A program made the translations under genes and the position numbers. Under the pieces are notes generated by a model that was given only the letters and a program-made list of their open reading frames with translations, was not told where the DNA came from and made no database searches. Shown one piece after another: positions 22,487 to 25,371 of a stretch of DNA of 64,000 nucleotides; position 1 is the stretch's first letter; every line of letters starts with the position of its first letter. The DNA lies in the NCBI GenBank assembly GCA_947492955.1, contig CANLOV010000002.1, positions 372,001-436,000 of the forward strand. Direction: 5' to 3'. The stretch comes from an uncultured Cellulophaga sp. GTDB lineage: Bacteria; Bacteroidota; Bacteroidia; Flavobacteriales; Flavobacteriaceae.

Positions 22487-23221
22487 CTACAGCAAATCTA
22501 AAAAATCTGATTTTTTCTGTCTAGACACAGGAATTTTATGGTTAGATTTTAGAATAACATAACCATCAGTTTTTATAAACTCTTTTATTTTATTTAAATT
22601 AATAATATATGAATTATGTATTCTAAAAAAAGAGTTTTCGGGAAGTAATTCGTTAACCTCTTTAAGCTTTTTAGTTAACAATATTTTTTGCCCATTTTCT
22701 AAATAAATAGTACTATAATTACCATCTGATGCGGCATATAAAATATCTTCATCTTCTAAAAACAACAACTTGCCATCAGTATTAATGGTAATTTTTTTAT
22801 GTAAGGAATTGGCATTAAAATTCAACAAAATATGTTCTAACTTTTCAGAAGTATTATTTTTTAAATTGTATTTTTTAATTTTCTGTATCGTTATATCTAA
22901 ATCATCTGAGTCTATAGGTTTTAACAAATAATCTATAGCTTCATTCTTAATCGCTTTTATAGCATATTGATTGTAAGCAGTAGTTATAACTATAGGGAAA
23001 TTTTTATTTTTTAATTTTTGAATAAATTGAAAACCGTCCATGGTAGGCATTTCAATATCTAAAAAAAGACAATCAGGTGTTTTTTTTTCTAGATAATCTA
23101 AGGCTTCTAATGGATTTGTAAATGATGCTATTACTTTAATTTCATCACTGAAATTAGTTAACTCCCAAGAAAGACTTTGGAGTGCTTTTATTTCATCATC
23201 TACTATTACAGCTTCTATCAT
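22487..23221 (-). CDS. LytTR response regulator
   Basis: A 244-residue response regulator. The receiver domain (1-120) carries the acidic pair VDDE, the phospho-acceptor Asp55 in CLFLDIEMPTMDG, a Thr in VVITTAYN-type motif and the Lys of LLKPI. The LytTR DNA-binding domain occupies about 145-244 with FFRIHNSYIINLNKI and the final IPVSRQKKSDF. It is the first gene of a two-gene unit with the TPR histidine kinase. Targets are unknown; the large gap upstream, with a small membrane-protein reading frame, is a candidate. Confidence 0.88.
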   Translation of the reverse strand: MIEAVIVDDEIKALQSLSWELTNFSDEIKVIASFTNPLEALDYLEKKTPDCLFLDIEMPTMDGFQFIQKLKNKNFPIVITTAYNQYAIKAIKNEAIDYLLKPIDSDDLDITIQKIKKYNLKNNTSEKLEHILLNFNANSLHKKITINTDGKLLFLEDEDILYAASDGNYSTIYLENGQKILLTKKLKEVNELLPENSFFRIHNSYIINLNKIKEFIKTDGYVILKSNHKIPVSRQKKSDFLDLL

Positions 23222-23537
23222 ATCTTAAGCAAATTAATCAAAAATAATATAATGATGGTGAATGGTATTAAAATATGTATTAATGGAACTTCTAACAGTA
23301 TAGTCTGCCACAAAACAAATAAATTCGGCACAACGTTATATGTTTATTTCTCAATTATATAGCCAAAAATTATACGATTACAGAAATTAAGGAACGTATA
23401 TTTTTCTCTATTTATACAAAAAACAATACTATTTGTACATCTAAGCAACTTACACATAATAGATTACTATAATTTTAGACTCCCCAGAACATTTTAAAAA
23501 CACGATTAAAAATTTTAGTTAATTATAAATAAAAATC

Positions 23538-23699
23538 ATGCGGAAATCCATTATTTTATTTTTGATACTATTACTTGTTTTAGTTCTCACTGTAATAACT
23601 GACACCAAAAAAACGTTATCTTCTAAGAGTACTGTTGATATCGAAAAAACCAATTCCAATAATTACCTATCAACAACACTAAAACAAACAGCTTATTAA
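23538..23699 (+). CDS. Candidate small membrane or secreted protein (53 aa)
   Basis: An open frame from ATG to taa with an N-terminal MRK followed by a hydrophobic run (residues 4-19, IILFLILLLVLVLTVI) and a polar Ser/Thr/Lys-rich tail ending in KQTAY. The hydropathy is that of a small membrane-anchored or secreted peptide and the frame is not explained by another gene. It is divergent from the LytTR regulator and stands alone in a 1.2 kb gap. No homologue or RBS is evident to me, so coding status is likely but unproven. Confidence 0.5.
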   Translation: MRKSIILFLILLLVLVLTVITDTKKTLSSKSTVDIEKTNSNNYLSTTLKQTAY

Positions 23700-23942
23700 C
23701 ATAATAATAACATACCTTAACTTCTATTGAGAAATGTTATAATTACTGGTTATTCAACGAATAAAAAAATAAAATATTAACTATTTTGTAAGATAAATGC
23801 AAAAGAGTTGTAATCATAAGGGGGTTTTAATTAAAAATATAGTTATTTTTGCAACTCCCCCAATTTTTATTATAAAATATAAAATTTATCTCTTCTTTAT
23901 TATTATTTGCGAATTAAGCAATTATAAAGAATAGTTATAATA

Positions 23943-24182
23943 TTTATGAAACTGTCAAACTTTGTACGACCTTAGGATAGTGCGTTAAAAAAAGAACGTT
24001 GCTTTGTTGAAAAACAGCCTTCCGATGGAATTACACTAAATTAAACAACCAAACCAATACGTTGTTTTGGACATATTGATTTTCTAGGTTTCGGGGGAAC
24101 TACCTATGATCAAAGAGTTTAATTACAGTAATTACAAATTTTGATGAATCGGACGGGTCGTACTGTTTGGCGGTATCATAAA
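23943..24182 (+). ncRNA. Candidate structured noncoding RNA of unknown family
   Basis: The ends pair over almost 27 bases: TTTATG with CATAAA (24177-24182), CTGTCAAAC (23952-23960) with GTTTGGCGG (24165-24173), and GTACGACC (23964-23971) with GGTCGTAC (24156-24163). A further inner stem pairs AGGATAGT (23974-23981) with ACTACCT (24099-24105, one bulge). The inside holds local hairpins: CGTT/AACG, GCT..GTT-GAAA-AACAGC, TTCC-GAT-GGAA, CCAAAC/GTTTTGG, and TAATT/AATTA flanked by ATCAAA/TTTGAT. G+C is higher than in the flanks and no reading frame fits. The strand is not settled; plus is taken because it precedes nrdB. A 6S-like or other known RNA is possible. Confidence 0.55.
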
Positions 24183-24384: not shown

Positions 24385-25371
24385 ATGTCAGTAGCAGTAG
24401 AGCCTATTTTGGAAGAAAATGAAGATCGTTTTGTAATATTCCCTATAAAACATGATGATTTATGGGAGTGGTATAAAAAATGTGAGGCTTGTTTCTGGAC
24501 TGCTGAAGAAATAGATTTACACGAAGACCTTAACGACTGGAACAATAAATTAAGTGATGATGAGCGTTACTTTATAAAACACATATTAGCTTTCTTTGCA
24601 GCTTCTGATGGTATTGTAAACGAAAACTTAGCAGAAAATTTTGTTAGTGAAGTACAATATGCTGAAGCTAAATTTTTCTATGGTTTCCAAATAATGATGG
24701 AAAACATACACTCTGAAACTTACTCGTTATTAATTGATACTTATGTTAAGGATGAGAAAGAAAAAAATCAGTTATTTAAAGCAATAGAAAACTTTCCTGC
24801 AATTAAAAAGAAAGCAGATTGGGCTTTAAACTGGATAGAATCTCCAAGTTTTGCAGAACGATTAATTGCTTTTGCTGCAGTTGAAGGCATCTTCTTTTCA
24901 GGAGCATTTTGTTCTATTTTCTGGTTAAAGAAAAGAGGGCTTTTACCTGGATTAACTTTTTCTAACGAATTAATATCAAGAGATGAAGGTATGCATTGCG
25001 ATTACGCTGTACACCTACATAACAATCACTTAATAAATAAAGTTTCAAAAGAGCGTATTACCGAAATTTTGGTAGACGCTTTAGATATAGAAAGAGAATT
25101 TATTACAGAATCTCTTCCTGCAAGTCTTATTGGAATGAATGCCAAATTAATGACCCAATATCTTGAGTTTGTAACGGATCGTTTATTAGTAGAATTAGGC
25201 TGCGATAAAGTATACAATTCTACAAATCCGTTCGATTTTATGGATATGATTTCTCTCCAAGGGAAAACAAATTTCTTTGAAAAACGTGTGTCTGAATATC
25301 AAAAAGCAGGCGTTTTGAAAAATGATGATGACGAAGATGCTCAGAAAATTAGTTTCGACGCAGACTTCTAA
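24385..25371 (+). CDS. nrdB: Class Ia ribonucleotide reductase, beta subunit
   Basis: A 328-residue R2 protein most like the eukaryotic-type class Ia small subunits, with the stretch [20 protein letters not shown]. The diiron ligands and radical tyrosine fit mouse R2 by spacing: Asp75, Glu106, His109, Tyr113 (radical), Glu167, Glu201 and His204. It houses the stable tyrosyl radical needed by NrdA to reduce ribonucleoside diphosphates to deoxy forms. nrdA follows 129 bases downstream on the same strand. The ATG start matches the expected N-terminus. Confidence 0.94.

Follow-up and report, generated by a model that had tools for sequence, protein, structure and literature searches.

Few regulatory RNAs are understood in the Flavobacteriaceae, a family that has been called understudied (PMC9723704). 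Among those described, Rfp18 is a structured small RNA of Flavobacterium psychrophilum; pairing is predicted between its third stem-loop and metalloprotease mRNAs, and deletion of Rfp18 lowers two of these mRNAs (PMC9723704). In the agr system of Staphylococcus aureus, the promoter-proximal repeats of AgrA are centred near −60 and RNAIII encodes delta-hemolysin (PMC4227749). The window, by which we mean the whole 64,000-nt stretch of DNA analysed, contains a locus that resembles agr P3/RNAIII in that a LytTR regulator and a histidine kinase are encoded divergently from a structured RNA.

Structure and reach of the RNA

The conserved structured RNA (hereafter the element) was placed at 23943..24182 on the plus strand from covariation and homologues. 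Its plus-strand fold reached −64.3 kcal/mol, compared with a mean of −45.42 (sd 3.89) for 200 dinucleotide shuffles (z −4.85), and none of the 200 shuffles folded equally well. The initial annotation had described a strongly structured 240-nt element, and this fold, together with compensatory changes in relatives, confirms at the sequence level that the element is a real structured RNA beyond chance. The minus strand is also well folded (z −4.11), so the strand is not given by the fold alone; on the plus strand, two end positions that are non-complementary as DNA form G-U pairs. The ends had been annotated as pairing over almost 27 bases in three blocks, and the predicted fold contains 25 outer pairs in three blocks (23944-23949/24176-24181, 23951-23960/24165-24174 and 23964-23972/24155-24163), with 5' sides spanning 23944..23972 and 3' sides 24155..24181, both backed by fold pairing and covariation counts. 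The inner stem, the side hairpins and the hairpin with a GAAA loop are likewise all present in the predicted fold. The GC content, which had been described as elevated, is 0.30–0.36 over the element vs 0.19–0.29 upstream (120-nt windows), and no ORF of at least 60 aa lies inside the element, in line with the earlier statement that no frame explains it. A near-invariant core hairpin, UAGGUUUCGGGGGAACUACCUA, lies at 24085..24106 on the plus strand, as identified from the core pattern, the alignment and congeners.

Across relatives, the near-invariant hairpin UAGGUUUCGGGGG(G)AACUACCU is enclosed by outer stems with compensatory changes, which were found in separate alignments of 43, 35 and 17 sequences; a search for such changes in other Flavobacteriaceae had been proposed in the initial annotation as a check. 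Of 120 distinct sequences, 95 passed a filter for the second-stem motif at set distances (59 long-type, 36 short-type) and 25 were left out, including L050 and L113, where the anchor was misled by an upstream GGGGGAA. Near-duplicate removal reduced the long type to 57 sequences, all used in a wider covariation count, and exclusion of 8 Maribacter-variant and 6 other sequences gave alignment A1 (43 sequences), while exclusion of L154 gave the short-type alignment A7. A1, like A7, was picked by a motif filter that favours pairing in a portion of the second stem; both sides changed in 20 of its 36 RNAalifold pairs. The named 35-pair structure, in which 9 of the 16 pairs of helices 1 and 2 changed on both sides, had 96.7% of A1 cells paired, compared with 29–49% in slid-structure controls, and 105 double-change cells vs 28.8 in shuffles that ignore the relatedness of the sequences (0/500 as high). 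Using structures predicted from the very sequences counted and shuffles with the same blindness to relatedness (0/200 as high in each case), we obtained 91.6% paired cells and 155 double-change cells vs 45.2 for the 57 long-type sequences, 92.7% and 53 vs 22.0 for the 35 short-type sequences, and 91.5% and 75 vs 25.5 for 17 congeners that were picked by covariance model, not by the motif filter, and aligned without a model. In the core hairpin of A1 the loop and six inner pairs are invariant, with variation only in the two outermost pairs. In the 17 congeners, the core has six G's in 16 cases and contains AACUUCC in 10 and AACUGCC in one.

A blastn search with the element in 60 genomes returned two real relatives (genomes G028 and G018) and one in-gene match (G049). 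Both relatives share the element ends and an inner 17-mer, GTTTCGGGGGAACTACC, and have a terminator directly downstream (L083, L093). With at most one mismatch, the 17-mer occurred at 64 places (59 of them exact matches), spread over 60 of 397 Flavobacteriaceae genomes, vs 11 places for its reversed control, and named genomes contributed at least 119 stretches with the 17-mer, with genera taken from at least 80 loci; among the matches listed are Maribacter, Zobellia, Muricauda/Allomuricauda, Flagellimonas, Robiginitalea, Arenibacter, Eudoraea, Pricia, Croceitalea and others. Matches on an Acidobacteriaceae contig (L108) and a Methanophagales contig (L153) look like chance, as the flanking motifs are absent at the usual distance.

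The covariance model R1 matched in 18/18 genomes of the window's genus, at one place each apart from an additional minus-strand shadow in the window's own genome; blastn, unlike R1, found none of the 17 other genomes. By both methods, leaving that shadow aside, the element occupies one place in its own genome. R1 gave 0/33 in other chosen genomes of the family, for which the positive comparison is the separate genus search; it missed one incomplete copy in this set, in G077, where the copy is truncated at the end of the contig (46.7 bits). An order-wide R1 scan matched 4 of 148 genomes including the window's own, under stricter filters that keep this low count from being evidence of absence, and the core pattern with five or six G's occurred in 13 of 395 genomes of the order, all Flavobacteriaceae. 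The homologues and their compensatory changes support both the structure and the family: by sequence comparison, the element belongs to a conserved flavobacterial RNA family, as the initial annotation had suspected, and this family is absent from Rfam 15.

The Rfam scan that the initial annotation had proposed gave no match to a known family, with 0 matches at gathering score over the window and 0 in 17 related loci; at E ≤ 10 the region gave four weak, unrelated matches far under their gathering scores. The exclusion of tmRNA, RNase P and SRP RNA, already made from motifs, agrees with the lack of any Rfam or ARAGORN match, and these identities were rejected. A 6S-like RNA, which had been offered as one option, was also rejected: a separate 6S-Flavo locus is present in 18/18 genus genomes (G000:C3:144895-145004 in the window's own), and the element has no match to 6S-Flavo. 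The end of a MITE or insertion sequence was considered because the element ends resemble terminal inverted repeats, and was rejected on the single copy in the window's own genome and the conserved gene order. Among the open-access papers listed in literature searches, none described the element RNA in its title or at the start of its abstract, and term searches of PMC11109978 and PMC8632094 gave no relevant occurrences. As far as Rfam 15 and the open-access literature searched show, this is a new RNA family.

Two-component system, predicted promoter and transcript

The neighbourhood was compared in 61 loci of up to 12 kb, comprising the window and 60 of the 63 places outside its own genome (the unfetched places being G415:C7, G256:C4 and G379); L060, L072 and L077, one-mismatch matches inside ORFs, were dropped to leave 58 member loci. 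A LytTR response regulator (Response_reg and LytTR domains; 22487..23221, minus strand) and a TPR sensor histidine kinase (PF06580; 20554..22485, minus strand), identified by their domains and as conserved neighbours, lie upstream of the element in the window, and this divergent pair adjoins the RNA in 55/58 member loci. It is not adjacent in L081 and L082, which belong to one genus, and L056 ends at a contig edge. The regulator also adjoins the RNA in 17/17 congener loci. Among 130 genera, represented by one genome each, 18 have a regulator of at least 79% identity; the RNA core is present in all of these but one, that is in 17, and the remaining genome is G077, with its truncated partial match. 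The initial annotation had called the position next to ribonucleotide reductase and a two-component system suggestive, and only the second half of this stands. Although nrdB (24385..25371, plus strand; from its ORF and the neighbourhood comparison) is the downstream neighbour in the window, it lies within 6 kb downstream in 37/58 member loci, where its distance from the core ranges from 297 to 4845 nt, with other genes there in the rest; among congeners it is within the 3.2-kb locus in 13/17, and many relatives with a more distant regulator keep nrdB without the RNA. The linkage to the regulator is thus supported by gene order, and the telling neighbour is the divergent LytTR two-component system, not nrdB, which we do not think is part of the unit.

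A predicted site for the LytTR regulator, found by repeat scans, lies at 23408..23439 on the plus strand (repeats 23408-23418 and 23429-23439, period 21), followed by a predicted −7 promoter box, TAATTTTA, at 23470..23477, recognised by TAnnTT spacing, with a start predicted near 23482. The repeated ACCAACTATACA was first noticed beside more distant regulators. Scored as NCNANYTATACA twice with a threshold of at least 14 of 18, a direct repeat of period 21 is present upstream of the RNA in 57/57 examinable loci, a count that excludes L056 (contig end). In a first 330-nt scan, 52/55 loci had at most 1 of 100 shuffles scoring as high; the repeats of L071, L073 and L076 lie outside that stretch and were found in a wider scan. 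Over both strands of 61 loci, 46 of 64 repeats scoring at least 16 are on the plus strand in the 1.7 kb before the RNA. A TAnnTT box follows the repeat at 29 bp (7 loci) or 30 bp (49 loci), that is in 56/57 loci, matching the core of the flavobacterial −7 consensus TAnnTTTG (PMC9723704), and a purine stands 42 bp after the repeat, where the start is expected, in 46/57 loci. The repeat and promoter box are thereby supported as predicted elements, with the repeat centre near −58 relative to the predicted start site. In L081 and L082, the repeat precedes the peptide gene and the RNA (scores of 16 and 18 out of 18); L300, the separately located regulator that goes with one of these two loci (genome G120), has no repeat (best score 12).

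With at most one mismatch, 23408-23439 is the sole repeat match in the window's own genome. A strict repeat pattern gave 17 matches in the 18 genus genomes (3 for the reversed control). Of these, 7 lie at the RNA; the other 10 lie away from it, and further sites for the regulator are therefore possible. An identical repeat-like site is present away from the RNA in two congeners (G006:C8:777569-777600 and G015:C1:2698597-2698628), and is perhaps a second regulator site. A second repeat of the same kind also occurs at L037 +1282 and L038 +2029 (from the core), ~500 nt before a gene of ~307 aa.

Between promoter and element, a small ORF at 23538..23699 on the plus strand encodes a predicted 53-aa membrane peptide, MRKSIILFLILLLVLVLTVITDTKK..., with Ser where its relatives, which mostly begin M(K/R)KC, have Cys. 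A hairpin of the form GGGGG...CCCCC, seen in sequence and fold, lies between this ORF and the RNA at 23820..23861 (plus strand). Across the loci, the gap between regulator and RNA encodes one of two kinds of product: in 29 loci a ~184-aa protein whose N-terminus forms a helix, in 22 others (by the strict start motif) a membrane-type peptide of 35–70 aa, mostly with M(K/R)KC. The upstream proteins and peptides tried (three and two, respectively, in Pfam, two and one in NCBIfam) matched no family at cut-off. The ~184-aa family is represented upstream of the RNA at L083:5076-5627 and in 28 other loci, and the model of a relative consists of a helix and a beta-rich domain (pLDDT 88.5), a fold for which the PDB gave no match at E ≤ 0.001. 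About 650 nt before the core of L090, an ORF that starts like the ~184-aa protein ends after 26 codons; at L089, in a genome belonging to that genus, the protein is complete.

Terminators were found downstream of the RNA in 22/58 loci, vs 3 for the reverse strand and 4 for shuffles, and none was found after the window's own copy. In eight short-type loci, only 12–59 nt separate the small-ORF stop from the second stem, so that a promoter for the RNA alone would hardly fit there. The simplest reading is one transcript from the regulated promoter, coding in its 5' part and structured in its 3' part. The initial annotation had proposed a discrete, conserved RNA; conservation holds, whereas the promoter evidence leads us to place the element within a longer transcript, as its 3' domain, and not to read it as a stand-alone RNA gene.

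Sister elements beside more distant regulators

In 24 loci with a regulator at about 53–72% identity, R1 gave no RNA at E up to 0.01. The direct repeat is present in 21/24 of these loci, with TTT at the same distance after it and the full TAnnTT box absent, so the promoter match there is partial. The gap between regulator and nrdB in these loci contains two other conserved RNA-like elements, which are preceded by the same direct repeat and located ~200–450 nt from the start of the regulator (L276-L296). One, around GUGAUCGUGGGGAUUCAC, is followed by a hairpin and a terminator (12 loci aligned, GGGG in 5); the other, around UUAAUUAUUGGGGAAAAAGAGAGC, is followed by a terminator (11 loci aligned, GGGG in 6 and GGG in the other 5). 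Rfam matched no family in the 14 distant-regulator loci scanned. As the same repeat precedes two unrelated elements that often bear GGG or GGGG, the G-rich output may persist while the scaffold is replaced. It is possible, although tentative, that the Bacteroidota have an independent counterpart of agr-RNAIII in which the main direct output of a dedicated sensor pair is a dual-function RNA, combining a membrane peptide with a structured regulator, and in which the RNA part is exchangeable.

Proposed mechanism and comparison with known systems

We consider it fairly probable that the regulator drives a single transcript that carries a peptide (or the ~184-aa protein) and a 3' regulatory RNA domain. 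Stimulation of the TPR histidine kinase would lead to phosphorylation of the LytTR regulator, which would bind the 21-bp-period repeat centred ~58 bp before the start and recruit RNA polymerase. The resulting RNA of ~700 nt, from about 23482 to at least 24182, would encode the 53-aa membrane peptide (in other loci the ~184-aa protein instead) and would end in a closed structured domain displaying the near-invariant G-rich hairpin. This domain would most likely be the regulatory RNA output, with its GGGGG loop pairing to C-rich targets or binding a protein. Transcription, regulator binding, translation of the peptide and the existence of targets are what we infer from these comparisons, and the mode of action of the RNA domain is the least certain step.

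The exact loop complement TTCCCCCGAA gave 304 matches in 20 genomes, the RNAs included, vs 165 for the reversed control. The 30 loci listed from these matches comprise 4 copies of the RNA itself, 20 sites within ORFs of at least 90 aa and 6 sites outside such ORFs, and no shared antisense target was seen among the 30. In G120 and G328, the genomes where the RNA is not adjacent to the regulator, TTCCCCCGAA occurs 44 times each vs 5 for the reversed control. C-rich motifs such as UUCCCC or TTCCCC(C) are present in the RNA's own 5' leader in 17/57 loci vs 2.7 expected, and also ~240 nt before the core in some loci; the same test found no C-rich partner in the window's own leader. These motifs could reflect long-range pairing within the transcript, which is suggestive and not general. 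The near-invariant hairpin itself fits protein binding as well as antisense pairing.

Three other explanations were weighed against a regulatory 3' domain. The domain might itself regulate nothing and serve only to stabilise or terminate, at its 3' end, the mRNA of the peptide or of the ~184-aa protein; its position where a coding transcript is predicted to end, a closed outer stem that could stop 3' exonucleases and the lack of targets found are all in keeping with this, but a stabiliser has no need of a 17–18-nt core hairpin that is near-invariant across genera, and a separate terminator lies downstream in 22/58 loci, making this account rather unlikely. The invariance of the loop and inner closing pairs in A1, as expected of a protein site, would suit a scaffold or sponge whose hairpin titrates an RNA-binding protein with a logic like that of CsrB or 6S; each RNA, however, has a single copy of the motif, no candidate protein emerged and 6S is a separate RNA, and we judge such a sponge quite improbable.

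A cis-acting nrdB leader, whether riboswitch or attenuator, would be compatible with the position of nrdB, which follows the element in the window and is found no more than 6 kb downstream in 37/58 member loci. Against it stand the other genes in the remaining loci, the terminators after the RNA and the many distant-regulator loci that have nrdB without the RNA; a leader with neither a constant position before nrdB nor constant company was rejected, and we give it hardly any credence.

Compared with the flavobacterial RNAs already described, the element is, like Rfp18, a structured RNA, a likeness drawn from the description in PMC9723704; R1 had no match in four genomes of the large genus g147, taken by guess as Flavobacterium. 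It is likewise, as 6S-Flavo RNA (RF01685), a conserved flavobacterial RNA, with a separate locus and without a match to that family. The best NCBIfam model for the kinase is FimS of Porphyromonas (NF053520), of which the kinase is not a member (84.6 bits against a cut-off of 600).

The best reading of the unit, by analogy, is an independent layout analogue of agr/RNAIII. RNAIII loops are C-rich, unlike the conserved loop here, which is G-rich, and the kinase, unlike that of agr, is of the TPR-PF06580 type. Rfam includes an RNAIII family, so the absence of an Rfam match means that no homology to RNAIII was seen. The repeat centre at about −58, derived here from sequence and a predicted start site, corresponds to that of AgrA near −60, and a small peptide gene precedes the RNA here where RNAIII encodes delta-hemolysin (PMC4227749). 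Across many genera, the RNA forms a conserved class whose likely on-switch is visible. If the proposed mechanism is true, it links a TPR histidine kinase and LytTR regulator to a defined output and provides a precisely located promoter, peptide and RNA, each of them testable. The RNA family itself is new as far as Rfam 15 and the literature searched show, without detected homology to RNAIII, and the control layout is one known from RNAIII; the design in which a LytTR regulator governs a structured RNA would then have a second, unrelated example here.
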